DNA of 64,000 bases from contig NZ_JNYD01000004.1 in assembly GCF_000717175.1 (NCBI RefSeq), forward strand, positions 1 to 64,000, in the 5' to 3' direction. Origin of the DNA: Pseudonocardia autotrophica. GTDB lineage: Bacteria; Actinomycetota; Actinomycetes; Mycobacteriales; Pseudonocardiaceae. The position numbers were made by a program, and so were the translations under genes. The notes under the pieces were generated by a model. The model did not search any database. It was not told the origin of the DNA and saw only the letters and a program-made list of their open reading frames with translations. Shown here one piece after another: positions 25,921-56,828 of this stretch (positions are counted from its first letter, which is position 1; the number at the start of each line of letters is the position of its first letter).

Positions 25921-25935
25921 ACAGTGCGTCGATCA

Positions 25936-27321: not shown

Positions 27322-27339
27322 AGCCCGCGACTGTAGACG

Positions 27340-28077: not shown

Positions 28078-28224
28078 TCCGACCCACCGGTCCCGGCCGT
28101 CTCTCCCCTCGTAGCCGGGAGAAGTTCGCCAACGACCGGCGTCGTGTGCCGAGCTGCCCGGAACCGCCGCGGCAGCTGACGACCCCTCGGATCCTCGTTG
28201 ATCCTGGCCCAGGAAGAAGTGTCC

Positions 28225-30073: not shown

Positions 30074-30693
30074 GGAGAAAGGTCGTTCTCCTTCTGGCCG
30101 CCTGCGCCCTGCTCGCAGGCTGCTCGTTCCGCTCCCCCGATGGGAGCGCACCCAGCCAGGTCCGGGAGTTCACGTTCGTCGCGCCGGGCGGCGAGACCCG
30201 GTTGACCTACGACCCACCGCAGACGCGCGGCCGGGTGACGGGACTCTCGGGCGAGGACCTGATGAACCCGGACCGACGAATCGGCGTGGACGACTTCTCC
30301 GGGCAGATCGTCGTGCTCAACATCTGGGGTTCCTGGTGCGGGCCGTGCCGCGAGGAGATCCCGGACCTGCAGCAGACGTACGCGCAGACACGAGAGCGTG
30401 GCGCGGTCGTGCTGGGCATCGACGTCCGCGACGACCGCCAGGCCGCGCAGGACTTCCTGCGCGCCCGGGCGGTGGCGTACCCGTCGATCTTCGACCCGGC
30501 GGGACGCTCGCTCGTGGCCCTCGGAGGCTTCCCGCCCAACGTCGTGCCCTCGACGATCGTGCTCGACCGTCGCCATCGGGTCGCAGCGGTCTTCCTCGGC
30601 GCGGTACGCATCAGCGAGCTCCGCCCCGTCGTCGACCGGCTCCTCGCGGAGCCCGCGACCGAATCCCCTCCCGGCCCACCGGACAGGCCTTGA
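30070..30693 (+). CDS. TlpA/ResA-like thioredoxin-fold lipoprotein
   Basis: The 207 residues start with a lipoprotein signal (LLAACALLAGCSFRS; lipobox LAGC). The thioredoxin-like domain has WCGPC in NIWGSWCGPCREEIPDL, and the cis-Pro region is FPPNVVPSTIVLD. Such proteins reduce apocytochrome c or copper-site cysteines outside the membrane. It closes the transpeptidase-DsbA-VKOR-TlpA operon and lies just before the copper ATPase promoter, so copper-site maturation is the likely theme. Confidence 0.9.
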   Translation: MRRKVVLLLAACALLAGCSFRSPDGSAPSQVREFTFVAPGGETRLTYDPPQTRGRVTGLSGEDLMNPDRRIGVDDFSGQIVVLNIWGSWCGPCREEIPDLQQTYAQTRERGAVVLGIDVRDDRQAAQDFLRARAVAYPSIFDPAGRSLVALGGFPPNVVPSTIVLDRRHRVAAVFLGAVRISELRPVVDRLLAEPATESPPGPPDRP

Positions 30694-30720
30694 CCAACCG
30701 TATTCTACGGTTGGTAGAAC
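30690..30720 (+). promoter_or_regulatory. CueR/MerR-like promoter with operator between -35 and -10
   Basis: TTGACC (30690-30695) and TAGAAC (30715-30720) are separated by 19 bases. Overlapping the spacer is a perfect dyad: ACCAACCGTA (30693-30702) and TACGGTTGGT (30706-30715) with TTC between. The overlong spacer with a dyad inside, and the ACC...GGT ends, are the hallmark of MerR/CueR-activated copper promoters such as E. coli copA. The ATPase gene begins 42 bases downstream. Confidence 0.7.
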
Positions 30721-30761
30721 AAGCCGACCGGTGCACGTTTCGAGGCGAAGAGGCGAGGACG

Positions 30762-37779: not shown

Positions 37780-38684
37780 GGTGCACCACTCCCGTTCGGG
37801 GCTGGGCGGGGATGGCGGGCGCCGGCGGTCAGTCCGGAGCGGATGGTGCGGTCCGCTTCGCGGGCGGGCAGGCCGATCGCTGCCGAGGCTTCGGCCAGGG
37901 CGGCTCGGGCCAGCGGGTCGGGGAGCAGGCCGGCGGCGACGAGCTGGCCGAGGGCGAAGGCGGCCTTGTTCAGGGTGGTGTTGCGTTGATGGCTGCCCGC
38001 CCGGGCGGCGAGCACCGCCTCGATCTCCCCGCGCAGGGCCGCGGCCGCGTACTGAGATCGTCGACCAACGAGGTCGAGGAAAGCCCCGAGCTCCTGCCGT
38101 TCCTGCCCCGGGGCAGGGACGTCCGGGCTGGCCAGCAGCTCGGTGATCCAGTCCGGCAGCGGCGCCACGACGTCGTGGTCGTTGCTGCGATAGCGACGCC
38201 CGCGCACCACCGAGCCCGCGGCGACGACGTAGCCGCCCGCGGCACGCACGTCGATCAGCCACCCGAGACGCCCCGCCGAGTTCCGGATCCGCCGATTGGG
38301 CGGTGCGGTGAAGTACAGGTGCTCGCCACCGGAGGCGGTCTCGGTGGCGAGGGTCTCCAGTGGGGTGGTCTGACCGTGGTCAGCGGCCAGCGCGGCGAGC
38401 ACGTCGATGCCATCGCGCACCCCGGGCCGGTCCCAGGCGGCGGGACGGACGGTCCCGTGGTCGGGGGTGTCGAGGTCGATCACCACCAAGTTCGACGGGC
38501 CGCAGGCCAGCCCGATATTGAGCCTCGGGGCCTGTGCCCAAGCTCTGCGGATTCGCGCCGGGTCGGTGGTCGCCCGGGCCTCCCAGTCACGTATCGCCGG
38601 CCGCTTGTCACCGGGACGAAGCGGAAACACCCGCCAGCCCCGAGCGGCATGGCTCAGCGCGGCGCGAAGTAGCTGGTCAACCAT
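37776..38684 (-). CDS. Bifunctional DNA primase/polymerase (prim-pol) of the element
   Basis: The 302 residues show the prim-pol catalytic set: the metal-binding DLDTPD in NLVVIDLDTPDHGTV, the SGGEHLYFTAP motif, and the DVRAAGGYVVAAGS segment. A helical C-terminal domain follows (QRNTTLNKAAFALGQLVAAG). It would prime and possibly copy the excised element. ATG 38684 is preceded by GGAG. With DUF3987 it forms the replication module, in the position where RepSA sits in pSAM2-type elements. Confidence 0.88.
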   Translation of the reverse strand: MVDQLLRAALSHAARGWRVFPLRPGDKRPAIRDWEARATTDPARIRRAWAQAPRLNIGLACGPSNLVVIDLDTPDHGTVRPAAWDRPGVRDGIDVLAALAADHGQTTPLETLATETASGGEHLYFTAPPNRRIRNSAGRLGWLIDVRAAGGYVVAAGSVVRGRRYRSNDHDVVAPLPDWITELLASPDVPAPGQERQELGAFLDLVGRRSQYAAAALRGEIEAVLAARAGSHQRNTTLNKAAFALGQLVAAGLLPDPLARAALAEASAAIGLPAREADRTIRSGLTAGARHPRPAPNGSGAP

Positions 38685-38739
38685 GCCCGTCTCCTCGTGG
38701 CGGTGTCGAAAGGTCGGCGCGGCGTGCGACTCTGGAGAT

Positions 38740-39162
38740 GTGCGAGTGACCGGGCGCGACCTTGAGCGGATCCCGCCGGGCAACCTCTGGGTGCCTCGTG
38801 GGGAGTTCGGCGCGCTCTGGGTAGCCGCCGAGAAGCTCACCTCGGCCAACGGCGAGCGCGGGATCGCCGATTGGGTACCGGCCGGGGTGGCGCTGACCTG
38901 CCGGTGGGTCGCTCGCGCGGTGAGCGAGACCGCGAACGCACAGCGGCTCCCTGTGCGTGCGCCGGTCACTGGTCGTCGCGTCCTTGCGTTCGAGGAGGCG
39001 ATCGAAGCCGAGTACCTCGCAGCAGAGACGATGCTGGTCCGGGCGAGTCCGCCAGCGCTGGTTCGTAGCCAGCCGGGCTATGTCGAGGCGGTGTCGGCGA
39101 CCTTGCGGTGGGCGTGGCGCGCCACCGGGTCGGCGCCGGTCCTGGTGCCGGTGGCTGAGTGA
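38740..39162 (+). CDS. Hypothetical protein of the mobile element, opposite strand
   Basis: The 140 residues (start VTGRDLERIPPGNLWVPRG; end WAWRATGSAPVLVPVAE) are well balanced in composition and fill the gap between the prim-pol and relaxase genes on the other strand. No family was recognised. GTG 38740 is preceded by CTGGAG; GTG 38746 is also possible. Two Ala-rich helices in the middle (AFEEAIEAEYLAAETMLV) may form a small helical domain. Confidence 0.5.
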   Translation: MRVTGRDLERIPPGNLWVPRGEFGALWVAAEKLTSANGERGIADWVPAGVALTCRWVARAVSETANAQRLPVRAPVTGRRVLAFEEAIEAEYLAAETMLVRASPPALVRSQPGYVEAVSATLRWAWRATGSAPVLVPVAE

Positions 39163-39164
39163 GG

Positions 39165-42100
39165 TCACGTCCGCTCCCAGGCGTCCTCGTCGACCACGTC
39201 GTGCTCCTGGACCGGTGATCGCGCGGCCTCGGCCGCGAGCTCTTCGGCCTGGTGGCCGGCGTCGTAGACGTCGCGGGCGTGGATCTCGGCCAAGGCACGG
39301 TGGGCGCGGTCGATCGCGGCTGAGGTCTCGTCCGCACTCGGCACCCGCACCGTGTCCTCGTCGCGGATTCGCTCCTCACTCGCTGCGATCTCACGGATGT
39401 CCTGCGGCTCATCGACTCGCTCAGCTGAAGCGTGGTCGAGTTCGTAGTCCTCGACGATCTCGCGGTGCCGCTCGTCCTCCGCCTGGTCTGCGCGGTGGGC
39501 GGCGAGCCATTCCTCGGCGGTGACCTGCGGCTCGGGGTCGGTGGCATCGGCATGGCGCAGTGCGAGCTCGGCCTGCGCCCGCTCCCCGGCCGCCCGGGTT
39601 CCGGCGGTGTGTGCCAGCCAGCGGGACCGAACATCGTCGAGGTCCTGCAGCTGCGCTGCTCGTGCGTCGAGAGTCGCGGCGAGCGCGGCGGCGTCGCGGC
39701 CCTGTTGGGCGAGCTGGTCGCGATCGGGGCCGCCGCGGGCGGCTTCGGCCTGCAGCAGCGCCGCCTTCTGCCGCTGGGCGTCAGCGGCCTGGTAGGTGGC
39801 GGCGATTTCGTTGGCGACGTAACGGGGCCCCCAGGCCGCTTCCCGTTCGGCGGCGCGGATGCGCATACGGAGCTGCCCGTCGGACATCTCGACCTCCTCG
39901 CGGTCGATCTCCGGGCGGCCGAGCGCGCGCCAGGCGTCCCGGTAGGCGGCGAACGCCTCGACTTGGCCGGGTGCGGGAGCCGGGCCCAGGGCGTCGACGT
40001 CACCGTTGTGCCCGCGCAGCTCGCGGTAGGCCGCGACTGCGCCGACGTCGGCCTTCCAATCTTGCAGTGCGCCAAAGTCGGCCGGCGGCGCCCCGAACTC
40101 TCGCACCGCCCACGCCGGCGGCTCCGCCACAGCGGCGTCGGCGAGTTCCGAGGTCCGGTTGTCCGCGGCCTCGGCGAGCCGGTCGAGGTAGGCCTGCCAC
40201 TCGGCGTCGTCGATCCGGGGTATGCGTTCGACCCAACTTGTGGTGGTGGGGTCGAAACGGTGGCGCTCGGTGATGCGCGAGTAGATGACGTTGGTGGCGT
40301 TGCGGACCCCATCCAAGGGTCTGTGGGCGATGGCGTCGGTGAGGATCTGGCGGGGGTCGTGGCCGGCGAGCTCAGCACTGCGCAGGACCCGCGTCAGCGA
40401 GGCGGCGCCGTCCTCGGCCGCGAGCCGGGCCCGGTCGCGCAGGGTGAGGGTGCCGTCGGCGGCGAGGTCGTCGAGCCAGGTCGCGGTGCGGTGGGTCGCG
40501 GCGAGCTGGGCGGCGTCGGCGAGCAGCTCCGCCGGGGTCCGCACCGACCCAACCTCCTCGGTCGACCGGGTGGCGGTGGCGAGCGCGGAGCGCTGCTCGG
40601 TCCGCCCGTCCGGGTCGAGCACAGATGCGACGACGGCGACCGGGTCGCGCCGGACGGTCTGGTCCGGGCGGCCGTCGGCGGGGTCTTCGACGACGGTCTG
40701 GGTGGCGACGTGCGCGGTGTTGGCGTCCCGGCCGCGGGACATGCCCACGTAGAGGGCCGAGGGGGCGGTGCGTGGGGTGACCACGGTATGGCTGGTGTCG
40801 ACGGTGGCCCCTTGGGCGGAGTGCACGGTGGCGGCGTAGGCGAGCGCCAAGTGGTCGGCGACGTAATCGGCGGGCAGCACGATGGGCTGCCCGTCGCTGG
40901 TGACGACCTGCAGCCCGCCGTCGGCGCGCACGGCGGTGACCTGGTAGGTCTCGCGGTTGATCGGGCCGCGATGGTTGCCCTCGACCCCGACCAGGTGCCA
41001 GCCGTTCGCCCGCGCCTCGACCAGGTCCCCGACCCCGGCGTAGGTGCCCTGCCGCCCGAGCGGCACGCCGCGCTCGGCGACCCGGCCCAGCCGGACCAGC
41101 TCGGCCCGCAGCCGCGCGGAGAGTCGGGCGGCTTGGTCGTTGGTGTCGACCAGCAGCAGCGAGCGGCGTCTGGCGAGGGTGTCGGCCAGCCACGCCCGCG
41201 CCGCGGAGGCTTCGGCCTGGTCGGGGGTGCCGGCGTCGAGCAGCCGGCCGTGGCGGTGGTAGTCGCCCAGCACCCGCTCATCCCCCGCCCGGAGGCGCAG
41301 GGAGGCGGCGCGTTCCCAGTCCGCGGTGAACCGCCGGGCGTCGACCAGCTCGTAGCGCGCCCCGGCCCCGGCGAGCAGCTCCATGCCCCCGCCGGCGCCG
41401 ACGGCGGCGAGTTGCTTGTGATCGCCGACCAGCAACAGCTTCGCCCCCGCGTTGTCCACATGCCTGTGGATGGCGGCCAGCGCGGTGGTGTCGGTCATCG
41501 CGGATTCGTCGACCACCACCAGGTCCCCGGACCGCAGCCGCCACGCCCCGTCCTCGACGGACGCCCGGGCCTCGGCCGGTGCTGCGGTGAGTCGGTCTTG
41601 GGTGGCCAGCCAGCGGGCGACGTTGCGCGCGGTCAGCCCTTCGCCGGCGAGGACGTCGGTGGCGACCTGGGAGGTCGCCAACCCGAACACCCGCCGCTCT
41701 CCCGGCTCACCGTGGAGTGCGGGGTCGGTCCAGGCGCGGGCCAGGGTGCCGACCACGAACGACTTCCCCGTCCCGGCCGGACCGACCAGTGACTCCAGCC
41801 GGGCACCGGAGGTCAGCACGCCGCGGACCGCGGCGGCCTGGTCGACGCCGAGCTCGATCCCCGCCTCCCGCAACCCCTGCAGGAACCGCTGCACTTGATG
41901 CGGCGCCACCGCCGCCGCGTCCCGAGCGGCGGTCGCTGCGACCAGGATCCGCTCGGTGCGCAACTGGTCCGGTGTGGCGAACAGCCGCCCACCCGGGGCC
42001 TGATACGCGGACGCGCCGTTGGCCAGCCGCAGCTCCGGGGGCAGGACGGAGGCGCCGGGGCGTTCGGCGTCCAGGGCGACGGCGTAGCGCAGCCCCTCCT

Positions 42101-43460
42101 CGGCCAGCTCGTCGAGCAGCCTCGCGACATCGGCGCCGTCGGTGAGCCCGAGGTGATCAGGCAGGGCGGCGTTGATCGCCCGGGTCAGGTCCGAGCGGGT
42201 CCAGCCCGCCTTGCGTGACTGGACGTCGGCGAGGGCGGTCTCGAGCACCGCCTGCGGTGACCACGGCTGCGCCGGCGGCCCCGAACCGCGCGCGTCCAAC
42301 GCGGCGCGGGCGACCCCGGCCAGACCGTCGGCGACCTCCGCCCGCAGCGTGGCGTCGACGCGGTCGAGGACCTGGGCGCGGGTCTGGCCGTCGTGGGACT
42401 TCGCCCGCCGGGTCGCGAACGTGGCCTGCCGCGACAGCCGATCCCGCTCCAGCGCGTTGGGAGTACGCCCGAAGCGCTGCTCGAACCCGGAGATCAACTC
42501 CGCCGCCTTCGCCGTCACCGCCCGACGCCGCGAGGAGATCAGCGCCATCGCCTCGGGCGCCACGCCGACGACTTCGCGGGACCGGCCGTCGGGGCGGGTC
42601 GCGAACACCACCCCGAGCGCGTGGGTGAGCCGTTCCTCGGTGGTGCGCTCGGCGACCGCGCCGGCAGCGCCGCGCCAGCGATAGATCGACCGCCCGTCCA
42701 GGGTCCGCCACGCCCCGTCCGGGCCCTGCACGCGGTTGAGGATCGGGTTGTGGATGTGCAGCTGCGGATCGTGGTCGCGGGAGTCGTGCTGGAAGAACGA
42801 CGCCCCCACCCAGTCATGCGCGTCCACGTAACGGCCGGCGCCGCCGCCGTGATGCCCGACCCTCGAGTAGCCGGCCTTCTCCGCCAGGTAGTCCAGGGCG
42901 GCGTTGCTGCCCGCCCAGATCGCGTCCTCCACCACCGTACGGAACCGCCCCCACGCCTGCGCGGTCGCCGTGTCACCGGCTGTACGGGCCTTCTGTTCTT
43001 CGGCCTCGAACGCGGTGTGCAGCAGGGTCACCGACTTCTGAACGCTGAACGTCACGTCCAGAAAGGCCACGTTCTGCCGCACCTGCTTGCCCGCCTCCAC
43101 CCGCAGCTCGGCACGGCGTTCAGCCGACGCGTTCGGCTCCCGTTCAACGGCGGCGCTGTACAGCTCGTCCTCGGTCTTGAACTTGCGACCGGTGTGGCCG
43201 AGCGTGGCGACCTCGTCCCAGCGGTCGGGGTCGCGGAAGCCGTCCTCGCGCGGGTCGAGGAACCGCTCGAACACCGCCCGCATGTCCTGCGCATCCACCA
43301 ACCCGGTCAGGCCCAACTGCGCGGCGCCGCGGCCCCACCAGCGGCCCGGCGGCTCACCCTCGGTGACCGCGCCGGTGTAGTAGTTCTCCCGCCCGGTCGC
43401 GACTTCCTTGAGCAGGTACTCCGGGCTGTAACCCGATGACACCGTCAGCACCCCGACCAC
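39165..43460 (-). CDS. MobF-family relaxase with C-terminal RecD-like helicase (TraA/TrwC-type)
   Basis: The 1431 residues start with a TrwC relaxase domain: Tyr pair in GRENYYTGAVTEGE, the three-His metal site in FFQHDSRDHDPQLHIHN, and DVTFSVQKSVTLLH. A superfamily I helicase follows, with Walker A LVGPAGTGKSFVVGTL, Walker B LVVDESAMTDT and a UvrD-like end (AYAATVHSAQGATVD, ALYVGMSRGRDAN). The last 350 residues are Ala/Glu/Arg-rich coiled coil. It nicks the element at its origin, stays covalently bound and unwinds DNA for transfer. Several GTG starts lie at 43460, 43451 and 43442. Confidence 0.93.
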   Translation of the reverse strand: MVGVLTVSSGYSPEYLLKEVATGRENYYTGAVTEGEPPGRWWGRGAAQLGLTGLVDAQDMRAVFERFLDPREDGFRDPDRWDEVATLGHTGRKFKTEDELYSAAVEREPNASAERRAELRVEAGKQVRQNVAFLDVTFSVQKSVTLLHTAFEAEEQKARTAGDTATAQAWGRFRTVVEDAIWAGSNAALDYLAEKAGYSRVGHHGGGAGRYVDAHDWVGASFFQHDSRDHDPQLHIHNPILNRVQGPDGAWRTLDGRSIYRWRGAAGAVAERTTEERLTHALGVVFATRPDGRSREVVGVAPEAMALISSRRRAVTAKAAELISGFEQRFGRTPNALERDRLSRQATFATRRAKSHDGQTRAQVLDRVDATLRAEVADGLAGVARAALDARGSGPPAQPWSPQAVLETALADVQSRKAGWTRSDLTRAINAALPDHLGLTDGADVARLLDELAEEGLRYAVALDAERPGASVLPPELRLANGASAYQAPGGRLFATPDQLRTERILVAATAARDAAAVAPHQVQRFLQGLREAGIELGVDQAAAVRGVLTSGARLESLVGPAGTGKSFVVGTLARAWTDPALHGEPGERRVFGLATSQVATDVLAGEGLTARNVARWLATQDRLTAAPAEARASVEDGAWRLRSGDLVVVDESAMTDTTALAAIHRHVDNAGAKLLLVGDHKQLAAVGAGGGMELLAGAGARYELVDARRFTADWERAASLRLRAGDERVLGDYHRHGRLLDAGTPDQAEASAARAWLADTLARRRSLLLVDTNDQAARLSARLRAELVRLGRVAERGVPLGRQGTYAGVGDLVEARANGWHLVGVEGNHRGPINRETYQVTAVRADGGLQVVTSDGQPIVLPADYVADHLALAYAATVHSAQGATVDTSHTVVTPRTAPSALYVGMSRGRDANTAHVATQTVVEDPADGRPDQTVRRDPVAVVASVLDPDGRTEQRSALATATRSTEEVGSVRTPAELLADAAQLAATHRTATWLDDLAADGTLTLRDRARLAAEDGAASLTRVLRSAELAGHDPRQILTDAIAHRPLDGVRNATNVIYSRITERHRFDPTTTSWVERIPRIDDAEWQAYLDRLAEAADNRTSELADAAVAEPPAWAVREFGAPPADFGALQDWKADVGAVAAYRELRGHNGDVDALGPAPAPGQVEAFAAYRDAWRALGRPEIDREEVEMSDGQLRMRIRAAEREAAWGPRYVANEIAATYQAADAQRQKAALLQAEAARGGPDRDQLAQQGRDAAALAATLDARAAQLQDLDDVRSRWLAHTAGTRAAGERAQAELALRHADATDPEPQVTAEEWLAAHRADQAEDERHREIVEDYELDHASAERVDEPQDIREIAASEERIRDEDTVRVPSADETSAAIDRAHRALAEIHARDVYDAGHQAEELAAEAARSPVQEHDVVDEDAWERT

Positions 43461-45543: not shown

Positions 45544-47391
45544 CTACTGCTCCTCCCCCGTGGGGGGCGTGTGGATCGGGACGACCTCGCCGTCGACGAC
45601 GAGCGCGTCCCCGGGCAGTGCGGGCGATACCGCCCGCGTGAACTGCGGGCCCGGCCACCCGGGCACCCAGCGCCGCAGCACCGCGCGGGCCCCGGGCACC
45701 TTGTCGACGCCGCGCACGACCCGCCCGGCCAGCTGGGGGCGGCGGCGGGACAGCCGGGTCCAGCGCACGTCGCGGCGCCGCCACGCCATCTGCGCCCACC
45801 CAACGACCGGCGGCATCCCGCGGCGGATCACCAGGACCTTCCCAGCGGGCAGGTTCGCGATCTGCGCCGGGGACAGCACGGCGGTCTTGCGGGTGCCGCG
45901 GGTGACGGTGCTCCCGTGCGGGTCGAGGGTGTCGGCGGGCTCGTCCCGCTCCCCGGTGAGCGTCGACCAGAACTGCAGGTCGTCGCGGTCGCGGGTGCCC
46001 CCGAACACCATCACCGCGCCCGCGTTGTTCAGGATCGTCGCCGCGCCGTGCTCCCCATACCTGGCGAGGAGCTGGGCGCGGGACTGGACAACGACGAGGA
46101 TGGACACCCCGCGCCCGCCCATGTCCGCGGTCCACGACTCGAGCGGGACCGGGCAGATCAGCGCGGCCTCATCCAGCGCCAGCCGCAGCCCGGGGTCCAG
46201 GCGCCCGCCCGGCTTGGTGGCCGCGATCCGGCGCGCCTCGCGGGCGATGTAGCCGGTCAACGCGCACATCAGCGGCGCGGTCGGGGACTCCTCCCCGCCG
46301 AGCAGGAACACCGTCCCCCGCACGGCCAGCAGATCGGCGACATCCAGCGGGCGGGCACCCTCAGGCCCCAGCCCTGCGGCCGCTCGTGCGGGGGCGGAGG
46401 TCAACCAGCCCAGCGCGGGCATGACCGTCGAGGTGATCGAGGTCCGGGTGCGGTCGTTCGTGGTCACGAACTGCTCGAAGCTGACACCGAACCCCGGCTC
46501 GGACGAACGGCGCAGCAGCGCGGTCACCTCCTTGCGGGCGGCCTCGGGGTCGGCGGTCCAGTCCATGACCTCCCGCATCGACCTGTGCCCCAGCGCGGCG
46601 GCGTGCAGCAGCGCCTCCAGCACCCGGCGGCCCTGCAGCTCCCAGTACTCCCGGTCCCCACCACCGGACGACGACACCGCCGAGAGCAGGTCCGCCGCCC
46701 GCTCCGCCGCGGCCACCGGGTCCTCGCACCCGGTCAGCGGATCGAAGGTGACCGTCGAGGCGACCCCACCCAGTCCGGCCGGGTTGAACACCAGGACCGG
46801 GCCCTTGCGCTCCCGGTACGGGGTGCACAGCTCCCACAGGTCCAGCCGGGTGCTGGTCGCCAACACCGCGCCCGGGGCGTCGATGACCTGCCCGGCCAGC
46901 CACCCCGACTTCCCCGACCGCGGCCCGCCGACGGTGACCACGACGTCCTCGTTCGACGACCACACCCACTGCCCACCCGACCGGCACAGCCGCACCGCCA
47001 CCTCCGCGACCGGCAGGGTCATCAGTCCCCACCGCGACCGCGACTCCAGCGACGGGCGGACCGTGGTCGCGCGGCGCAGCATCGGCACCGACCCGCCGAA
47101 CCGCGCGATGTCCAGCGACGACGCCACCCCGGACTTGCGCCGCGACCGCGCACCCCACCGCGACACCACCGACGACGACCGCGACCACCGGTACCGCACC
47201 AGAACCAACAACCCGAGCACCGGCGCGAACAGCAGCGGCCACGGCAAGGCCCGCACGATCGTCAGCGCGGGCAGCAGCGCCAGCAGCCCCAGGCCCAGGG
47301 CGATACCGCGCGCCCGACGAACCCAGGCCAGCACGGCCGCGGCGGCCAGCCCGACCAGGACCAGCGGCGTCGGGCTCCACAGCACCTCCAT
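45544..47391 (-). CDS. VirD4/TraG-type type IV coupling protein
   Basis: The 615 residues have two N-terminal helices (SPTPLVLVGLAAAAVLAWV; IALGLGLLALLPALTIVRAL). An ATPase domain follows, with Walker A VTVGGPRSGKSGWLAG, Walker B LRLALDEAALICPV and the downstream SILVVVQSRAQL and MVFGGTRDRDDL segments of the TraG/TraD/TraM-recognition family. It would bring the relaxosome to a secretion channel. ATG 47391 shares a base with the preceding stop (TGATG) and has GGAGG upstream. No VirB-type channel genes are in the window. Confidence 0.9.
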   Translation of the reverse strand: MEVLWSPTPLVLVGLAAAAVLAWVRRARGIALGLGLLALLPALTIVRALPWPLLFAPVLGLLVLVRYRWSRSSSVVSRWGARSRRKSGVASSLDIARFGGSVPMLRRATTVRPSLESRSRWGLMTLPVAEVAVRLCRSGGQWVWSSNEDVVVTVGGPRSGKSGWLAGQVIDAPGAVLATSTRLDLWELCTPYRERKGPVLVFNPAGLGGVASTVTFDPLTGCEDPVAAAERAADLLSAVSSSGGGDREYWELQGRRVLEALLHAAALGHRSMREVMDWTADPEAARKEVTALLRRSSEPGFGVSFEQFVTTNDRTRTSITSTVMPALGWLTSAPARAAAGLGPEGARPLDVADLLAVRGTVFLLGGEESPTAPLMCALTGYIAREARRIAATKPGGRLDPGLRLALDEAALICPVPLESWTADMGGRGVSILVVVQSRAQLLARYGEHGAATILNNAGAVMVFGGTRDRDDLQFWSTLTGERDEPADTLDPHGSTVTRGTRKTAVLSPAQIANLPAGKVLVIRRGMPPVVGWAQMAWRRRDVRWTRLSRRRPQLAGRVVRGVDKVPGARAVLRRWVPGWPGPQFTRAVSPALPGDALVVDGEVVPIHTPPTGEEQ

Positions 47392-47894
47392 CACTCCTCC
47401 CATCCCGTGCGCTCGCGCCACGCCTGCACGTCGGCCAGATGACGGGTGCAGTCGGCGGCGTGGCCGGACTCGACGTCCGCCGGGTGGGACTCGAACGGCC
47501 CCTGATCGCGCACCAGCTCGCCGCACGCACCACACCGCCACGACGCCGAGGGCACCCGGAACATCTCCCGCGCCCGCTCCGGCTCGCGGCCCTCGACCAC
47601 CAGCGCGAACGCCACCTCCCCGACCGGCTCGTCGGTGTCCGGCAGGCCCAGGGCCTCGCCGACCTCGTCCCACGACCGGCCCGCTGCGCGGGCCGCCTCG
47701 ACCGCGTCGACCAGTACCCGCCGGGCAGCAGCCCGGAGCACCGCCGCGGCCCGCACCCCGGGGAGCGGGTCGACCAGCCGGCGGCGGGTCAGGATCTGGT
47801 AGCCCTCGATCGGCTCGACGACGACCTGGCCGTCGAACTGCTCGACTGCGACCTCCTCCAGCAGCGTCTGCAGCCGCCGCGATACCGCGCTCAC
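47391..47894 (-). CDS. Hypothetical protein with zinc-ribbon-like Cys/His pattern
   Basis: The 167 residues start with an Arg/Ala-rich helical part, including AGRSWDEVGEALGLPDTDEP, which resembles a helix-turn-helix. They end with WRCGACGELVRDQG, then ESHPADVESGHAADCTRH, a C-x2-C ... H ... C-x2-H arrangement that could bind zinc. The GTG start overlaps the WhiB-like gene stop, and the stop overlaps the coupling protein start. Comparable genes occur beside the coupling protein in related elements as far as I recall; no function is known. Confidence 0.6.
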   Translation of the reverse strand: MSAVSRRLQTLLEEVAVEQFDGQVVVEPIEGYQILTRRRLVDPLPGVRAAAVLRAAARRVLVDAVEAARAAGRSWDEVGEALGLPDTDEPVGEVAFALVVEGREPERAREMFRVPSASWRCGACGELVRDQGPFESHPADVESGHAADCTRHLADVQAWRERTGWEE

Positions 47895-48355
47895 CGCACA
47901 CCTCCACAGCGCACGTCCGCGGCCCAGCGGTCGACCGTTCGACGCGACACCCCGAACTCCACCGCCACCCGCGGCCGCGGGACCCCCGCCTCCAGCGCGC
48001 GCCGACCCGCGGCGATCACCTCACCCCGATTCCGCGACGACAGCTCGCGCGCACCCACCGGCACCACGACCATCGGCCGCGACGCCTCCGGCCGGGGCAC
48101 CTCGTGGCCGCGACGCAGCTCGGCGCGCTCCCGCTCGTCGAGCCCACCGGCCACGCCGTGCGGCAGCTCCACCAGCGCCCACGCCAGGCACGCCGCCCGC
48201 ACCGGGCACCCCACACAGACCGCCTTGGCCCGCGCCACCTCACCGTCACGAACCGGCCCGGCCTCGGCGACCGGGAAGAACAACTCCGGATCCACACCGC
48301 GGCACCGCGCGCGGGTCCGCCAGCCCCGCCCCTCGACTCCGTCTCGCTCTACCAT
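47891..48355 (-). CDS. WhiB-like iron-sulfur regulator fused to a helix-turn-helix tail
   Basis: The 154 residues carry the four Cys ligands for a [4Fe-4S] cluster (RCRGVDPELFFP; AKAVCVGCPVRAACLAWAL). The turn motif, normally G(V/I)WGG, reads GVAGGLDERERAELRR, so the Trp is replaced by Ala. Beyond the usual WhiB end an extra segment (RRALEAGVPRPRVAVEFG, VSRRTVDRWAADV) forms a helix-turn-helix. It could regulate the transfer operon in response to redox state. ATG 48355 is preceded by AGGAGAGG. Confidence 0.82.
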   Translation of the reverse strand: MVERDGVEGRGWRTRARCRGVDPELFFPVAEAGPVRDGEVARAKAVCVGCPVRAACLAWALVELPHGVAGGLDERERAELRRGHEVPRPEASRPMVVVPVGARELSSRNRGEVIAAGRRALEAGVPRPRVAVEFGVSRRTVDRWAADVRCGGVR

Positions 48356-49774: not shown

Positions 49775-50542
49775 ATGTGGATGATGAGTCTCGTGCCGAA
49801 CACCCGACTCCAGGCCGCGATGGACGCGGCCAGCCTGACGATCGAACAGATCGCCGCCCAGGTGGACGTCGACCCCAAGACCGTGGAGCGCTGGGTCAAC
49901 GCCAACGGCCGCACACCGCACCGCACAACCCGTCAACGCGTCGCCGCACTCCTGCGCGTCGAGGCGAACCATCTCTGGCCGACCAATGTCCGCCACAGCA
50001 TCGCGCCGGTCGACGACGTCGCCGAGCTCGTCCACCTCTACCCGTCCCGCTCGTCGGTCCCTTTCAACCTGTGGACCGAGCTCATCCACGGGGTGCGCGA
50101 GGCGATGGACGTCCTCGTGTTCTCGGGCCAGTTCCTCGTCGAGCAGCACAACATGCTGCCGGTCGTGCGAGCAAAGGCCGCTGAGGGCGTTCACTTCCGC
50201 TTCGTCGTCGGGAACCACACCTCGCCGGCGGTCATCCAACGAGCCGAGGAGGAAGGCACCACGGGCGGGTTGGAGGGCCGCATCCAAATGATGCGGCGCT
50301 ACCTGCAGGACGTCGCCGGACTACCCGGCGTCGAGGTCCGCACGCACGGCACGATCCTCTACAACTCGATCTACCGCTTCGACGACCAGGCGCTCATCAA
50401 CGGCCACACCTTTGGCTCGCTCGCGGGCCAGAACCCGATGCTCCACATCCGCCGCGTCGACGGCGGGTCGCTCTGGGAGCACTACATGCGCTCATTCGAG
50501 CGCGTGTGGGAGATCGCCGACCCCGAACCCGCCGGAAGGTAG
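49775..50542 (+). CDS. Helix-turn-helix protein with DUF5919-like C-terminal domain
   Basis: The 255 residues carry an N-terminal XRE-like domain (AMDAASLTIEQIAAQVDVDP, then KTVERWVNANG). A larger domain follows, beginning VHLYPSRSSVPFNLWTELIH, with GVREAMDVLVFSGQFLVEQH and ending in SLWEHYMRSFERVWEIA. The C-terminal fold resembles phospholipase-D-like or nucleotide-sensing domains of DUF5919, which is common in actinomycete elements beside Nudix and HD genes. ATG 49775 was chosen; ATG 49784 and GTG 49793 are possible. It is seven bases upstream of the Nudix gene. Confidence 0.7.
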   Translation: MWMMSLVPNTRLQAAMDAASLTIEQIAAQVDVDPKTVERWVNANGRTPHRTTRQRVAALLRVEANHLWPTNVRHSIAPVDDVAELVHLYPSRSSVPFNLWTELIHGVREAMDVLVFSGQFLVEQHNMLPVVRAKAAEGVHFRFVVGNHTSPAVIQRAEEEGTTGGLEGRIQMMRRYLQDVAGLPGVEVRTHGTILYNSIYRFDDQALINGHTFGSLAGQNPMLHIRRVDGGSLWEHYMRSFERVWEIADPEPAGR

Positions 50543-50549
50543 GGCACGC

Positions 50550-51032
50550 ATGGCCCGCATCGACTACTTCGACGACCCGGCCGCGCCGGCCATCAACAGC
50601 GTCGTCCCCTCGGTGACCGTCGCCGTGCGCAACAGTGCCGGGCAGATCCTGCTCATCCACAAGATCGACAACGACTTCTGGGCTCTCCCCGGCGGCGGGC
50701 ACGACCCCGGCGAGAGCATCACCGACACCGCGGTCCGCGAGGTGCGCGAGGAGACCGGCATCGACGTCCGGCTCACCGGACTCGTCGGCACCTACACCGA
50801 CCCCCGCCACGTCATGAAGTACGACGACGGCGAAGTCCGCCAACAGTTCTCGCTCTGCTTCCACGCCGTCCCCGTCGACGAGTCCGAGCAGCCCCGCGAG
50901 GACGGCACCGAGACCAAGGCCGCCAAGTGGGTCGAGCCCGCCGACGTGCCCGGCCTGAGCATCCACCAGTCCATGCGGATGCGGATCGAGCACGCGCTCG
51001 ACGGGAGCCGCACCGAACCGTACCTAGGCTGA
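50550..51032 (+). CDS. Nudix hydrolase (Pif-like position)
   Basis: The 160 residues contain an intact Nudix box, GGGHDPGESITDTAVREV followed by REETGI, with its metal-binding Glu residues. ATG 50550 is seven bases after the DUF5919 gene, so they are likely cotranscribed. In the element pSAM2 the Nudix protein Pif gives immunity against re-entry of the same element; a similar role here is inference from context. Its last nine bases overlap the convergent HD gene. Confidence 0.85.
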   Translation: MARIDYFDDPAAPAINSVVPSVTVAVRNSAGQILLIHKIDNDFWALPGGGHDPGESITDTAVREVREETGIDVRLTGLVGTYTDPRHVMKYDDGEVRQQFSLCFHAVPVDESEQPREDGTETKAAKWVEPADVPGLSIHQSMRMRIEHALDGSRTEPYLG

Positions 51033-51611
51033 CCCACCGGCGAGCCGGGCCTCGGCTCGCTGCACCGACTCGCGGAGCACCGGCTCCGCCTCGAGCCACG
51101 CCTGATGGACCGGATAGTCCGCCGGGTACCGGCGCAGGATCTCCGCGATCCGGTCGTCGTAGGTCAACGGTTCCCCCGACGGCCCGGTCGTCAGATCCGC
51201 AAGCGCGAGCGCATCCAGCAGCGGGCCATCCGGGAACGGAAACTCCCCGAGCTCGTCGACCAGGCCACGCTGCTTTGCCTCGAAGCGCGCTCCCGAGTGG
51301 TGGGCCACCAGGTTGACGACGATCTCCGGCCAACCCTCGTCTCGCAGGTAGCGGGCGCCGTCGAGAGGGTGGAAGCGGGTGTCGCCGATCTCAGGGGAGT
51401 AGCCGATGTCGTGGAGCCAGGCTGCTGCCACGAGGAACTCCGACTCCTCGAAGCGCCCACCTTGAGCAATCTCCGTGGCCCGCCACGCTACAGCCTCCAC
51501 ATGCAGCCAGCGGCGTCCCAGAGGCTGCACAAACTTCTCGGCAAGGCCCGCCGCGCCTGCCACGACAGCCATGGGCTGCGGTACCCCGTCGACCGGCCTC
51601 ACGCTTCCCAT
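51024..51611 (-). CDS. HD-domain phosphohydrolase
   Basis: The 195 residues contain the HD signature AAWLHDIGYSP, an upstream His (RRWLHVEAVAWRA) and downstream His pairs (LVAHHSGARFEA), forming the usual divalent metal site of HD nucleotidases or phosphodiesterases. A later Asp (LALADLTTGPSG) completes the set. The substrate is unknown. It is convergent with the Nudix gene; the two may both clean up or signal through nucleotides. ATG 51611 was chosen; TTG 51629 is possible. Confidence 0.8.
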   Translation of the reverse strand: MGSVRPVDGVPQPMAVVAGAAGLAEKFVQPLGRRWLHVEAVAWRATEIAQGGRFEESEFLVAAAWLHDIGYSPEIGDTRFHPLDGARYLRDEGWPEIVVNLVAHHSGARFEAKQRGLVDELGEFPFPDGPLLDALALADLTTGPSGEPLTYDDRIAEILRRYPADYPVHQAWLEAEPVLRESVQRAEARLAGGSA

Positions 51612-51697
51612 CTGCAGCACGCTACGCAAGCCGCTATGAACCTGCCACGGCGCGGGCGCCGACCACGCGGTCCACGCGCCCAGTCGCGTTCTGCGGC

Positions 51698-54142
51698 TCA
51701 GACTTCAGTCTCCACCTCGACATCAAGCAGCGCTGGTAGCTGCGCTCTTGCCTCCGCGTAAATCGGGGCGTGCTCGTCGTCGCGCTCTAACGTTATGACC
51801 AGTGCGTAATCCTGCTGAGCGCCTGGCGTGTCCCATCGGTTTATGTTGCGGACAGCCACGACAATTTCCTCCCCCTCACTTCGATCGTACCGAATCTTCC
51901 GTTCAAACCGACCGAAGTGATTCGTCCCACGGGAACGGGCTGTATCAGGAGGAAGAAGGGGTATACGATAGCTTGCTAGCGCTCGGGGAACGTCACCGTC
52001 CGCCTCCTCGTTCGAGCTTTCGACCGTCGGCGGGTTCTTGACGAACTCGGAGAGGACAAGGTCTTGAGACGCCCTGTAGAACAGGTTCACACTCATGCGA
52101 TTCGCCAGATAGTCCAGTCGCGTGGGCCGAACAGGCGGATCGTAGGCTAGCGCCATACAAATAGTCCGAACTCCACCCGACTCAAAGAAGGAACCTGGCA
52201 TCGCGACACTGTAGATGTGAACATCGTCCACCTTGATGGCGGACTCGCTTAGCATGACCACTCTATGAGACGTTGACGATACAGCCCGATCAACATCCAG
52301 CCGACCGTAACCTGTGAGCCTCCGTTGAGCCTCCAGGCTCTTGGCCATCTGACCAAGGTCGACCACGCGGTCAGATTCCGTCACCGAGGCAAGCAGGAGC
52401 GCACGAACCGCGTTTGCAGTAAGGCTCGGGTACCTCCCGAGCAACCGCAGTGCCGCATTCGCGACCAAAGGCGCCGCGAAGCTCGTACCGGAGGATGCGG
52501 CGAGTAGGCGATCAAAATTCTCGCCGCCTGCGCCGACGATCTGCACGCGACGGTCATTCGTTACTGGCCGATTCGCAAGAGTATCAATACTCAGGCTTCC
52601 TCCGGGCGCTGAGATCTCTGGCTTAACCATTCTTGCGACCCCGGGACCGACCCGCGTATAAGGGCTTGGCATGCCCTCTGCACCTACGGGCACCCGATTA
52701 ACATCTGGCCGGCGCTCCGTCGCGCCTTGAACCGTGTCCGAGCACAGCGCACCTACGGTAAGAGCTAACGCAGCCGAAGCTGGATCCGCGAGGCCCGCAT
52801 CATCATTGACAAGAAGGCTCGTGGGATAGTCGCCATCTACAAGCGCGTCCACCTCACGCATAATCTCGACGTAGTTTCCTGAACTGATGACTACAACGAT
52901 TTTTCTAGCTCGCACAAATTGATCAATTAGGGCCGCAAGCGGAGTCGGGCGAGGTGGAAGGTACGGGTTTCGAGCATCACCAACCGAAAGGTTGATCACC
53001 CTCGCGCCAGCGTCCGCGGCTATATTCAACGCGTCGTTTACCTGCTCCTCCCAGACTCGATCAGAGGGAAACAAGTTGTTGGCGTCTAAGACCCTGACGC
53101 TGACCAGCCGGCCAGCTGGCTGGACGGAGGAACCTGCCGACAAGCTATCTTCCAGAGAACCATAAAGCGCAAGGCTAGCAACGAGTGTTCCATGGCCATT
53201 CTCGTCTGCGCCGTTACCGAGCGAGGCATCGACAAACTCAACTCCAAGCACGGCGGGCGCAAGAAGCGGATGAGCGCTTCGCAGCCCAGAATCAACTACT
53301 CCGATAATCGGGGAATTCCGTGCTGGCGGCGTCACCACGGGCAAGTCCTCAGGTCGAGCACCAAAAAACTCCGCAAACGCCAACATTGGCTGCGGGAGAG
53401 TATCGATCCTCCTGACACGATCAGTCTGTGCGAGGGCGATTACGGCCCCGGCCTTGACGTCAGCACACAGAACTGAGATACCTGCGAGAACTCTGAACAT
53501 TGCATCGTGAACCGTGCCGCCAGACGCCCTAATCGCTGCGGCCACCTCGTCGTGCCGCCTGCGGGCGTCAACTTCATCCTCGGGACACCAGCACTGAACA
53601 TCCAACCGAATTAGATCGTCGGGGCCAGATTCTTCTATCCGCTTCTTGACACGATCAGAGACAACGTCCTCCGCCACAAGCGAGCGAACTACCTCCAAGG
53701 CATCAAACAGGCCTTGATGAGCCGCAGCCCTTTCGTTTCCGGCTTCAGTCAGTCCGGGAGATCCTGCCGCATATTCAGCATTCTGTTCAAAGAATGTGGT
53801 CATTTCGACATCAGAGGAGAATGCAACTAGGGTGCTGTTACCTCTGATTTCGAGCACCTTCAGTCCGACGCCCTCAACATCCGACGGATCGATATTGCGA
53901 TTAGCTTCAAGGACGACGACCAGCTGCGGATCTACACCTAGCGTGCTCGGCCGCCTCTTGAAGTCGTCGATAACCGCGACCGTTAGCTGCCGGACCTCTC
54001 GTGCGTGCTGCGCGCGATCGGCGTACCGAACCTTACCGCCAAAGCCCCGTCGGCCCTGCCTCTGACCAGGCGACACAACCTGCGCAAGACGCAAATGTGA
54101 GTAGCCACGCCCGTGGAAAGGCAATGCGCCATCCGAAGTCAT
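51698..54142 (-). CDS. Cytosolic subtilisin-like (S8) serine protease paired with an AAA+ ATPase
   Basis: The 814 residues have no signal peptide, so the enzyme acts inside the cell. Residues 1-270 are a non-catalytic N-terminal region. The S8 domain has all catalytic residues: Asp284 (IIGVVDSGLRSAH), His317 (ENGHGTLVAS), oxyanion Asn423 (VVISSGNYV) and Ser554 (SGTSFAAPLVANAAL). About 200 C-terminal residues form a beta-rich domain (IKVDDVHIYSVAMPGSFFES) that may recognise a target. Base composition is visibly AT-richer than the neighbours, as in the ATPase 34 bases upstream. The pair is likely one operon acquired as cargo; a regulated suicide or defense protease is inference. Confidence 0.88.
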   Translation of the reverse strand: MTSDGALPFHGRGYSHLRLAQVVSPGQRQGRRGFGGKVRYADRAQHAREVRQLTVAVIDDFKRRPSTLGVDPQLVVVLEANRNIDPSDVEGVGLKVLEIRGNSTLVAFSSDVEMTTFFEQNAEYAAGSPGLTEAGNERAAAHQGLFDALEVVRSLVAEDVVSDRVKKRIEESGPDDLIRLDVQCWCPEDEVDARRRHDEVAAAIRASGGTVHDAMFRVLAGISVLCADVKAGAVIALAQTDRVRRIDTLPQPMLAFAEFFGARPEDLPVVTPPARNSPIIGVVDSGLRSAHPLLAPAVLGVEFVDASLGNGADENGHGTLVASLALYGSLEDSLSAGSSVQPAGRLVSVRVLDANNLFPSDRVWEEQVNDALNIAADAGARVINLSVGDARNPYLPPRPTPLAALIDQFVRARKIVVVISSGNYVEIMREVDALVDGDYPTSLLVNDDAGLADPASAALALTVGALCSDTVQGATERRPDVNRVPVGAEGMPSPYTRVGPGVARMVKPEISAPGGSLSIDTLANRPVTNDRRVQIVGAGGENFDRLLAASSGTSFAAPLVANAALRLLGRYPSLTANAVRALLLASVTESDRVVDLGQMAKSLEAQRRLTGYGRLDVDRAVSSTSHRVVMLSESAIKVDDVHIYSVAMPGSFFESGGVRTICMALAYDPPVRPTRLDYLANRMSVNLFYRASQDLVLSEFVKNPPTVESSNEEADGDVPRALASYRIPLLPPDTARSRGTNHFGRFERKIRYDRSEGEEIVVAVRNINRWDTPGAQQDYALVITLERDDEHAPIYAEARAQLPALLDVEVETEV

Positions 54143-54176
54143 GCAGACAACCCTATAACAGGCCGCGCGTCAGACG

Positions 54177-55211
54177 CTAACCCTCTTCGCCAAGAGATCG
54201 GGACTCGTCGTCAAGCTGCATATCTTCTACAACTCGTCGAAGTGTCTGCTGTCGCTGTTCGACGCGCAGGAGCGAACGCTCGAAGACGGTATCATCTAGT
54301 CTTGCTATTCCCTCGACAACGCACTGCCTAAGTGCGTCGAGGCATACAAGCTCGATCTCAGCGGGAGAGAACCTTAGTAGTTCCAACGCCCATTGCGAAT
54401 AAGAAATTCGCGATGGGAAGGCTCGACATTTCAGCATGATCAGACGCTGCACGCCCTCTACATCAAGGCGCCCGAAGCCAATGACTTCGTCGAACCGCCT
54501 CCATAGCGCCGTATCGAGCATATCTGCATGGTTCGACGTGGCAACCACGAGGGACTCGCCCTGCATCTCTTCGAGAACCTGCAGTATTGTGGCGACAACC
54601 CGATTAAGCTCCGCGTGGTCATTTGCCTGATGCCGGTGACCAGCAATAGCGTCAAATTCATCGAGAAGGAGTACGCACGGAGTCGTCTCGGCGAACCTAA
54701 CCACACTTTCGAGGTTCTTCGCTGTCTCGCCGAGGTAGGACGAAACGAGTGCTGGCAACGATACCGACGCGACTGGCAAACTCAGGCTTGCTGCCAGCGC
54801 CTGAGCCGCGGCAGTCTTCCCAGTCCCCGACTCCCCAATGAAGAGGAGCCGCTGACGTGGCCTCAACTTGAAGCTGGACAGAACATGCCGAGACCGATTT
54901 TCCTCGACGAGCTCCAGCAACGGGCGAAACACGCTATCCATGAGGACCAGGTCATCGAATTCGATCCGAGGCTTCGACAGCCTCAGCAGCGGCCGATCGT
55001 CCCTGCTCTTAGGAATCGGAAGCATTGCTGGCATCGACCGAATGCCAGGACGCTCGTCTCGATTAAGCGCTTGCTCCAATTCATCAGCAAGCAAGTTGTG
55101 GCGCTTCCGACGTTCATCAGCAATTATGGAGGCTGCAGCGTCCCTGAAGGCACTATCGTCGCCCCGTGAATAAGCAGCCAGGAGGGCACGCAGGTGGTCG
55201 CTTCTAGCCAT
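54177..55211 (-). CDS. AAA+ ATPase, partner of the S8 protease
   Basis: The 344 residues carry an N-terminal helical region (1-85) and one AAA module with Walker A GESGTGKT (126-133), Walker B CVLLLDEFD (179-187), sensor 1 VVATSNHADM and an arginine-finger-like ALWRRFD (236-240). A C-terminal lid (SPAEIELVCLDALRQCVVEG) follows. It resembles the FtsH/ClpX-like classical AAA group but has no protease domain, so it may remodel or gate the S8 enzyme encoded directly downstream. Low GC and codon use match the protease rather than the surrounding element. Confidence 0.88.
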   Translation of the reverse strand: MARSDHLRALLAAYSRGDDSAFRDAAASIIADERRKRHNLLADELEQALNRDERPGIRSMPAMLPIPKSRDDRPLLRLSKPRIEFDDLVLMDSVFRPLLELVEENRSRHVLSSFKLRPRQRLLFIGESGTGKTAAAQALAASLSLPVASVSLPALVSSYLGETAKNLESVVRFAETTPCVLLLDEFDAIAGHRHQANDHAELNRVVATILQVLEEMQGESLVVATSNHADMLDTALWRRFDEVIGFGRLDVEGVQRLIMLKCRAFPSRISYSQWALELLRFSPAEIELVCLDALRQCVVEGIARLDDTVFERSLLRVEQRQQTLRRVVEDMQLDDESRSLGEEG

Positions 55212-55328: not shown

Positions 55329-56666
55329 TCAAGGAGTTCCTTGCCTGCGAGGGCGACGTGCTGCAAGGGCGGCTGCGGCTCGTTGATCTGCTTCGAGGAC
55401 GAAAGCAGTGTAGGTCCGAAGGGTCGTCGAGCCCCCACCTGAGTGTCCAAGCCGGCCCGCGACCGTGCGAATGTCAACGCCCGCGGCGATCAGCTCGGTC
55501 GCCGAGTAGTGGCGGAGGTTGTGAATGTGGGTGTCGATGCCGAGGCGGGCGGCCAGTCGGCCGTATCGCTGGGTCACGGTGTCCGGGTTGATCCATGTCG
55601 AGCAGTCCGGCGCCCTGGAGAAGACGAAGCCGTCCCGGCGGATCTTCACGCCTAGCAGCTCGGCGCGCTGCTCGTAGCGCGTGCGGAGCTCCCGCAGGAC
55701 CTCGACCATCTCCTCGTCGAGGGTGACTCGGCGGTGCTGGTGGGTCTTGGTGTCGCCCTCCCACCGCTCTCCGCCGATCTGGCTGACGCTGCCCTTGAAG
55801 ATGACCACCCCGGCGTCGAGGCTGATGTCGGTCCAGCGCAAAGCGCAGATCTCGCCGCGGCGGGCGCCCGTGGTCATCGCGAACAGGATGAACGTGCTCC
55901 AGCTCGGGTCAGACGCAGCCGCCTCGAGGATCGCGGCGGCCTCCTCGGGGGTCGGCGGCTGGGGGTTCGGCTTCGGCACCGACGGCGCCTCCGCCTGCTC
56001 CGCCGGGCTGACTGAGATCCAGCCCCACCGCACCGCACGGGCGAACGAGCCGCTCAGGATCGCGTGAATGACCCGGATGCTCCCGGCACCGAGCGGGACG
56101 CACTGGTGCGGCTTGCAGGTCCGGTCGCACCACCTGCACGGCGCTGAGGAATCGTTCGCAATCTCCTTGGCGCACTTGCGCCGCGCCGTGTGCTCGTCGC
56201 ACACGTGCTCACCACTGCTGCGGTGGCGAATCTCCTTGCGCCCCTTGCAGTGGTCACGGCAGCGACGGAGCTTGGCGTAGAGCGTCTCAATCGTGTCGAC
56301 CCGGACCTTGCCCACCGGCAGCTTCCCCAGCTCCGGGCGGATGTGCTTCTCGATTTTGCTGACGTAGCCGGCCCGGGTCTTGCGCTCGACGTCGATGACG
56401 TCGAGCCACTTGTCCAGCAGCTCGTTGACCGTCGCACCCGTGCGCGGGTTCCGCTGCTCGTCGACCTGGTTGAGCAGCTTCGTCAGGACCTTCTCGGCCT
56501 CGCGCTCCGTCTCGCGCTTGGTGCCCAGTGCTTTCACCGTCTGCCGGAGCCACAGCTTCTCGCCGGTCAGCTGGTCGACCCCGGCGTAGACCTTGACCCG
56601 CGCCGAGCCGCTCGGCAGCCACGAGATCGTCCCGCGCTGACGCTTCTCGGTGGAGGCCACGAGCAC
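55329..56666 (-). CDS. int: Tyrosine-recombinase integrase of the element
   Basis: The 445 residues have an N-terminal arm domain, a core-binding domain and a catalytic domain with Arg (TTGARRGEICALRW), HxLRH (HIHNLRHYSATEL), GHSGG and Tyr (TTLRTYTAF). The core-binding domain holds a Cys-rich insert of about 55 residues (CRDHCKGRKE, HVCDEHTARRKC, CRWCDRTCKPHQC). Shorter versions are known in actinomycete integrases; here it could bind zinc. The GTG start at 56666 is 89 bases from the tRNA-Thr gene, marking that tRNA as the attachment site. It carries out integration and, with an excisionase, excision. Confidence 0.93.
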   Translation of the reverse strand: MLVASTEKRQRGTISWLPSGSARVKVYAGVDQLTGEKLWLRQTVKALGTKRETEREAEKVLTKLLNQVDEQRNPRTGATVNELLDKWLDVIDVERKTRAGYVSKIEKHIRPELGKLPVGKVRVDTIETLYAKLRRCRDHCKGRKEIRHRSSGEHVCDEHTARRKCAKEIANDSSAPCRWCDRTCKPHQCVPLGAGSIRVIHAILSGSFARAVRWGWISVSPAEQAEAPSVPKPNPQPPTPEEAAAILEAAASDPSWSTFILFAMTTGARRGEICALRWTDISLDAGVVIFKGSVSQIGGERWEGDTKTHQHRRVTLDEEMVEVLRELRTRYEQRAELLGVKIRRDGFVFSRAPDCSTWINPDTVTQRYGRLAARLGIDTHIHNLRHYSATELIAAGVDIRTVAGRLGHSGGGSTTLRTYTAFVLEADQRAAAALAARRPRRQGTP

Positions 56667-56743: not shown

Positions 56744-56754
56744 CTGACCTGCGG

Positions 56755-56828
56755 AGCCGCCTTGGGGAGTCGAACCCCAGACCTACGCATTACGAGTGCG
56801 TCGCTCTAACCGACTGAGCTAAGGCGGC
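56755..56828 (-). tRNA. tRNA-Thr, anticodon CGT
   Basis: On the minus strand the acceptor GCCGCCT pairs with AGGCGGC. The D-arm (AGCTCAGTCGGTTAGAGC), the anticodon stem-loop with CTCGTAA (anticodon CGT) and the T-arm GGTTCGACTCC are all present. No CCA is encoded; the base after the acceptor is T, usual for Thr. The gene is intact and next to the integrase, so the element inserted at its 3' end and preserved it. Confidence 0.95.

Follow-up and report, generated by a model that had tools for sequence, protein, structure and literature searches.

An IetAS-type ATPase and protease pair as exchangeable, integrase-adjacent cargo of a tRNA-Thr element from Pseudonocardia autotrophica

The stretch of DNA analysed here, referred to as the window, comprises positions 1 to 64,000 of contig NZ_JNYD01000004.1 of Pseudonocardia autotrophica (64,000 nucleotides) and contains an AAA+ ATPase gene followed by the gene of a large subtilisin-like protease. 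Judged by its sequence, this pair is an IetAS module, a toxin-antitoxin and anti-phage type of an already-named kind, and belongs to an actinobacterial branch. It travels as exchangeable cargo on an element inserted at a tRNA-Thr gene and adjoins the integrase there. New with respect to the known IetAS are a C-W-C motif, a propeptide-like N-terminal fold predicted by the structure model, and an acidic alternating tail in the actinobacterial IetS. The two genes are the following:

54177..55211, minus strand: ietA, AAA+ ATPase of 344 residues, PAN/FtsH/p97-type fold and, at the N-terminus (residues 2-50), a stretch of three helices
51698..54142, minus strand: ietS, cytosolic S8 (subtilisin-like) protease of 814 residues (PADLOC IetS, Pfam Peptidase_S8, structure model)

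Both open reading frames had been placed here by an earlier examination of the letters alone (the sequence-only reading), and they are confirmed at these coordinates together with the gap of 34 bases between them, ietA being first on the same strand. That reading knew of no named, characterised system with such a pair, which has to be corrected given that PADLOC and NCBIfam hold models for it (IetAS and IteS/IteA, respectively). The best PADLOC models for the two proteins are IetS and IetA, and both are matched near full length: the protease scores 305.7 bits with PDLC02198 (residues 14-803 on profile positions 4-780 of 795) and the ATPase 238.1 bits with PDLC04232 (residues 1-323 on 1-322 of 330). 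The named anti-phage models of NCBIfam are matched as well (IteS 87.4 bits, IteA 189.1 bits), and the Pfam scan of the window gives S8 with 128 bits and AAA with 107.9 bits, besides HD, NUDIX and phage integrase. A full-length protease, an ATPase, their adjacency and order, and intact catalytic and ATPase residues were all found.

The genome-collection scan found 49 loci, of which 12 have a full-length IetS (L004-L015) and 37 a generic S8 protease. IetA lies directly 5' of IetS, on the same strand, in 11 of the 12 full-length loci (in L007 in three pieces), and at the twelfth the contig ends 222 bases upstream of the match. Within the locus DNA scanned, IetA was found at none of the 37 generic S8 loci, and the pair therefore behaves as the fixed two-gene unit that had been supposed. 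The IetS locus of Pseudonocardia halophobica (L004) is 100% identical to that of the window. Among 199 relatives, the IetS model was matched at 1e-3 in 129, most of the matches listed covering the catalytic domain only. Matches above 200 bits occur in four genomes, namely the window's own, G096, G098 and G103, and IetA stands beside IetS in all four. Among the genomes of the same genus, only the window's own exceeds 200 bits; another (G012) has a more distant match of 113 bits with IetA adjoining. The adjacent pair is also present on plasmids of Mesorhizobium, Bradyrhizobium and Rhodococcus, with a PADLOC IetS match for each of the three proteases and an IetA match for both of the ATPases tested; one of the rhizobial plasmids is typed conjugative and one non-mobilizable. 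At L007 (Amycolatopsis azurea, 7714-12271) the three pieces of the ietA match lie around an open reading frame that by eye is transposase-like (8277-9179), and the frame of ietS is likewise broken. This one case, with ietA interrupted and ietS cut, therefore fits the prediction of a toxin-antitoxin relation.

A metagenome-assembled genome of Acidimicrobiaceae (L008; 3313-5438 and 8880-12400) carries a full IetAS pair and also a divergent IetA-like gene, followed by an open reading frame of 378 residues that by eye resembles the start of IetS. These pairs lie near a helicase gene and a type I restriction gene.

The motifs of IetA that bear on its function are located as follows:

54813..54836, minus strand: Walker A GESGTGKT, residues 126-133 (K132)
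54729..54737, minus strand: pore loop 1, residues 159-161 (Y-L-G)
54657..54674, minus strand: Walker B VLLLDE, residues 180-185
54495..54500, minus strand: arginine pair R238-R239, taken from its position as the arginine finger, unchanged in all 74 sequences

The AAA module described earlier is indeed intact. The IetA alignment is made up of the window's sequence and 73 others picked by hand, mostly full-length, from 120 listed of 543 found, and K132, D184, E185, R238 and R239 are invariant in all 74. Residues 159-161, which we take to be the pore loop from their position and motif, have Y or F at position 159 in 71 of the 74 sequences and L160 and G161 in all of them.

For IetS the structure model has a predicted local distance difference test score (pLDDT) of 88.6, and the following parts were delimited:

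53681..53920, minus strand: N-terminal lobe N1, residues 75-154, alpha/beta (model secondary structure)
53399..53614, minus strand: lobe N2, residues 177-248, beta-alpha-beta-beta-alpha-beta (model secondary structure)
53585..53593, minus strand: C-W-C motif, residues 184-186, the same in all 77 sequences
52268..53347, minus strand: S8 catalytic domain, residues 266-625 (D284, H317, N423, S554)
51782..52264, minus strand: beta domain towards the C-terminus, residues 627-787, of the kind present in subtilases of the KP-43/Tk-SP type (model, fold search)
51701..51742, minus strand: alternating hydrophobic/acidic C-terminal tail, residues 801-814

The four catalytic residues named for this 814-residue subtilase are present and invariant in all 77 sequences aligned (the window's own and 76 picked by hand, mostly full-length, from 120 listed of 272 found). 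The protease had been called cytosolic, and this agrees with both lines of evidence on its start: the maximum 15-residue mean hydropathy within the first 45 residues is -0.08 (over the 77 IetS, median -0.01 and maximum 1.27), and the reading frame 5' of the ATG runs for nine codons before a stop. Judged by these two observations there is no signal peptide, and correction of the start brings no export signal to light. The element order of lobe N2 is that of S8 propeptides, and the N-terminal region of actinobacterial IetS may accordingly be described, by the model only, as a propeptide-like fold. The idea that N1 and N2 are a duplicated domain was rejected, their profile comparison giving no similarity. 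Of the C-W-C motif, only the W is retained in three further IetS, two of them rhizobial and one from Rhodococcus. The tail, where the confidence of the model drops below 50 from residue 807 on, shows its alternating pattern in 43 of 77 sequences against an average of 8.1 for shuffles, and is proposed as a candidate handle for IetA.

Searches for structures and phage relatives mostly returned general families. PDB sequence searches gave general subtilases for IetS (40 rows) and AAA proteins for IetA (best 60 of 265), none of these matches listed being labelled IetS or IetA, and in the PDB fold lists the aligned ranges scarcely reach two regions, the helices at the N-terminus of IetA and the N-lobe of the protease. 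With IetS, the phage-record search gave two partial matches that start at the catalytic domain, and the search of the viral fold library turned up subtilases in general besides weak, unrelated entries. Most of the 120 homologs listed (of 272) carry PF27160, and some PF27210, ahead of the S8 domain; the window's IetS matches neither in the Pfam copy scanned.

The position of the pair in a mobile element, and its lower GC content, had both been pointed out before. The GC content of the two genes is 0.58 and 0.565, and at third codon positions (GC3) 0.584 and 0.603, which is clearly below the GC3 of 0.822-0.902 of the neighbouring HD, Nudix, helix-turn-helix (HTH) and integrase genes. The element itself is marked by these features:

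56753..56828, minus strand: tRNA-Thr (CGT), the integration site, abutting the integrase
56753..56796, plus strand: 44-base attachment (att) core, the 3' part of tRNA-Thr
55329..56666, minus strand: tyrosine integrase (Pfam)
45544..47907, minus strand: TraG/VirD4-type coupling protein
39165..43460, minus strand: TrwC-type relaxase

What identifies an integrative element is thus in place: an integrase beside a tRNA gene, a second att core and transfer genes, with the distal end on another contig. The 44-base core occurs once more in the genome, on contig C21 (G000:C21:92274-92317), where it lacks the remainder of the tRNA and lies 8.9 kb from the contig end. No second copy was found in the window, searched by exact words of at least 14 bases on the same strand or on both strands with up to 16 mismatches in 44. 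Because the second core copy sits on contig C21, the far end of the element lies off the window. An extra partial core copy (at least 90% identical), besides the longer match to the tRNA, is present in at least 30 of 60 Pseudonocardia genomes, a lower bound counted by hand that includes the window's own genome and one of the same species. This makes tRNA-Thr(CGT) a hot spot of integration within Pseudonocardia. Some of these genomes have several extra core copies on one contig.

Seven orthologous integrases from other Pseudonocardia species, 66-73% identical, are all located at this tRNA-Thr, two of them being split between frames. The same coupling protein and relaxase accompany four of the seven (L129, L130, L131 and L133), two loci (L127 and L128) are too short to judge for transfer genes, and in the 19.6 kb of L132 both are missing. 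IetA, IetS, HD and Nudix genes are absent from all seven loci (1e-8, within the locus DNA scanned). In two of them (L130 1609-3950, L131 1472-5446) other genes adjoin the integrase in place of IetAS; on inspection by eye they look like a gene for a phosphotransferase-like kinase and one for an HTH regulator. Given that related elements at the same tRNA are without IetAS and have other genes in its place, IetAS is exchangeable cargo; the sequence-only reading had already taken the pair for cargo.

The suggested link with defence was followed through the neighbours of related loci. Neighbours of 10 IetAS loci (103 open reading frames) match 207 PADLOC models at 1e-8, and 127 neighbours of 10 control S8 loci match 10, which speaks for this link; models are not genes, one protein being able to match many. 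The controls were hand-picked among the 37 generic S8 loci, with actinobacterial origin and length as criteria. The 103 were scanned out of 110, leaving out three open reading frames of L012 (the same genes as in L011), the ietA piece L007:7714-8079, L013:8213-9595 (antisense to ietA) and the overlapping L009:16132-16539 and L015:1772-2185; the two open reading frames of the second IetAS-like pair of L008 remain within the 103 and add to the 207 models. Among the best 25 of the 207 are models of type I restriction, of BREX and of UvrD/NERD helicases, the BREX models (PglW, PglX, BrxC) probably belonging to L007 by gene size and order. When 20 long neighbours were scanned singly, 15 matched nothing and five matched PADLOC: a UvrD/GajB-like helicase at L005, type I restriction at L008 and L011, a helicase at L008 and TniQ at L009.

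Taken as a whole, the best explanation, and one that we consider probable, is an IetAS cargo module in which IetA restrains IetS. Free IetS, as a cytosolic subtilase, would harm the cell, and IetA, a PAN/FtsH-type AAA+ protein with an unfoldase-like pore loop, would bind it and keep it off with ATP, probably through the C-terminal tail, the N-terminal propeptide-like region or both. Phage infection or loss of the element would overwhelm or remove IetA, and the released IetS would then cleave proteins, leading to a growth stop before phage release or to the death of element-free cells. The window's own copy may be active against phages.

The sequence-only reading had the ATPase switching the protease on. 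The published pairs, in the excerpts of the papers cited here, behave in the opposite way, the protease being toxic alone and neutralised by the ATPase (PMC8562856, PMC5006074, PMC6755753). By analogy with these relatives, the ATPase would be at least a restraint on the protease. Activation would follow if the pair were a two-part AAA+ protease, with IetA unfolding proteins, such as those of a phage, and feeding them to IetS. The PAN/FtsH-type fold, the aromatic pore loop (71 of 74 sequences) and the order of the genes (11 of 12 loci) would suit this arrangement, and the published neutralisation data leave room for activation on infection. The active site of subtilases, however, is open and without a sealed chamber. 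In relatives, moreover, the excerpts describe a protease that brought E. coli counts down by 5 logs, or by 3 when tested a second time, and was neutralised by the co-expressed ATPase (the mycoplasma pair, PMC8562856; likewise a toxic protease and a neutralising ATPase in PMC5006074), and a minimal mycoplasma did not survive losing only the ATPase gene but tolerated the loss of both genes (PMC6755753), which makes an activating IetA distinctly unlikely.

A different question is whether IetAS serves only to stabilise its element, with no role against phages, cells that lose the element being killed through IetS. The founding pair stabilises a plasmid, according to a title cited in PMC5006074, and the related SgiAT furthers the maintenance of the integrative island SGI1 (Salmonella genomic island 1), as the excerpt of the same paper states (PMC5006074); the window's pair lies on an integrative element and the rhizobial pairs on plasmids. 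Defence models near the chromosomal relatives argue against so exclusive a role, which appears rather unlikely, and addiction and defence are compatible with each other. Lastly, an ordinary housekeeping or secreted protease with an ATPase as chance neighbour could be imagined, S8 proteases being common in actinobacteria (the 129 relatives above), but it is already contradicted by the missing signal peptide, the constant IetA partner, the restriction of strong matches to four of 199 genomes, the low GC and the mobile context, and has almost no probability left.

Several results weigh against the assignment and the restraint by IetA. The NCBIfam scores stay far under the equivalog cut-offs (87.4 of 900 bits for IteS, 189.1 of 510 for IteA), and the NCBIfam mycosin model scores higher on the protease (97.4 bits) than IteS does. 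The interrupted ietA at L007 is a single locus. Named defence genes were found close to three of the 10 IetAS loci when the 20 neighbours were scanned singly, and the Pfam families of the 103 neighbours are mainly metabolic ones and helicases among the best 25 of 123. It had been asked whether the pair would be found mostly outside mobile elements with a housekeeping partner: the pair is sporadic (4 of 199 genomes) and its partner is not housekeeping, which stands in its favour, and no tyrosine integrase is among those best 25 families, which does not. For lobe N2, the Inhibitor_I9 (I9) Pfam profile gave no match for eight segments (E-value up to 10, filters on), nor did a PDB sequence search with a profile of the same segments, so that its propeptide likeness is a matter of element order in the model alone. 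Foldseek places IetS against ProN-Tk-SP with a root-mean-square deviation of 21.6; the N-lobe is therefore seemingly not posed as a bound propeptide. Regarding the tail, 34 of 77 sequences are without the alternating pattern as defined, and the acidic tail is absent in two rhizobial IetS.

For the restraint of IetS by IetA, a more specific version can be formulated, speculative and rather doubtful, in which IetA, as an unfoldase, would continuously grip IetS by its tail, serving as a beta-strand or a pore handle, and would keep the propeptide-like N-lobe inhibitory until phage infection breaks the grip. If true, IetAS would be a protease-based parallel to chaperone-controlled toxin-antitoxin defence, and its antitoxin would be a motor protein. 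The well-scoring models of this branch, together with the C-W-C motif, the propeptide-like lobe and the tail, make the question of AAA+/subtilase control experimentally simple. In addition, a tRNA-Thr hot spot of Pseudonocardia is documented, with related elements and differing genes beside the integrase.

On the other side of the pair lie two further genes:

51024..51629, minus strand: HD-domain protein, adjoining the pair (Pfam)
50412..51032, plus strand: Nudix hydrolase (Pfam)

The HD gene was considered as a member of the ietAS unit and dropped, because its relatives are far commoner in the genus (35 of 60 genomes at 1e-30) than IetS. The Nudix protein (50412-51032) weakly matches the PADLOC candidate PDC-S07 (9.9e-9), and the HTH protein (49775-50542) matches the short PADLOC mad1 model (9.4e-6). 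Farther away in the window there is a metal-related cluster (24811-34903) with a cation efflux protein, Nramp, VKOR, an HMA-domain P-type ATPase and CtaG, and a gene for a Prim-Pol type primase/polymerase (37776-38969).

The claim that IetAS acts against phages reportedly goes back to a 2020 Science screen. Surveys list IetAS as anti-phage and call its mechanism unknown in the excerpts cited (PMC9958689, PMC11878078), the excerpt of a review (PMC10952713) does not mention ietAS, and a literature search by title gave nothing on the mechanism among the titles listed. Like the founding IetAS pair on pTiC58, the window's pair has an AAA+ ATPase gene directly 5' of a large cytosolic S8 protease gene; it differs from the founding pair and from IteS/IteA of NCBIfam in staying under the equivalog cut-offs and in belonging to the actinobacterial branch with C-W-C and acidic tail. 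As for known proteases, subtilases of the Tk-SP (3afg) and KP-43 (1wmd) type are secreted and share the C-terminal beta domain, whereas IetS lacks a signal peptide and has in addition an N-terminal lobe and a partner ATPase. SgiAT of SGI1 is, by the description in the excerpt, a protease toxin and AAA antitoxin on an integrative element, compared there to IetS/IetA of pTiC58 (PMC5006074); host, element and integrase are other than the window's, and the two are likened by description and not by sequence. A like arrangement, by description, is found in Mycoplasma TA132/3 (JCVI-syn genes 0132/0133), where, in the excerpts, an AAA-ATPase antitoxin of 353 residues is encoded 5' of an S8 toxin of 757 residues (PMC8562856, PMC6755753).

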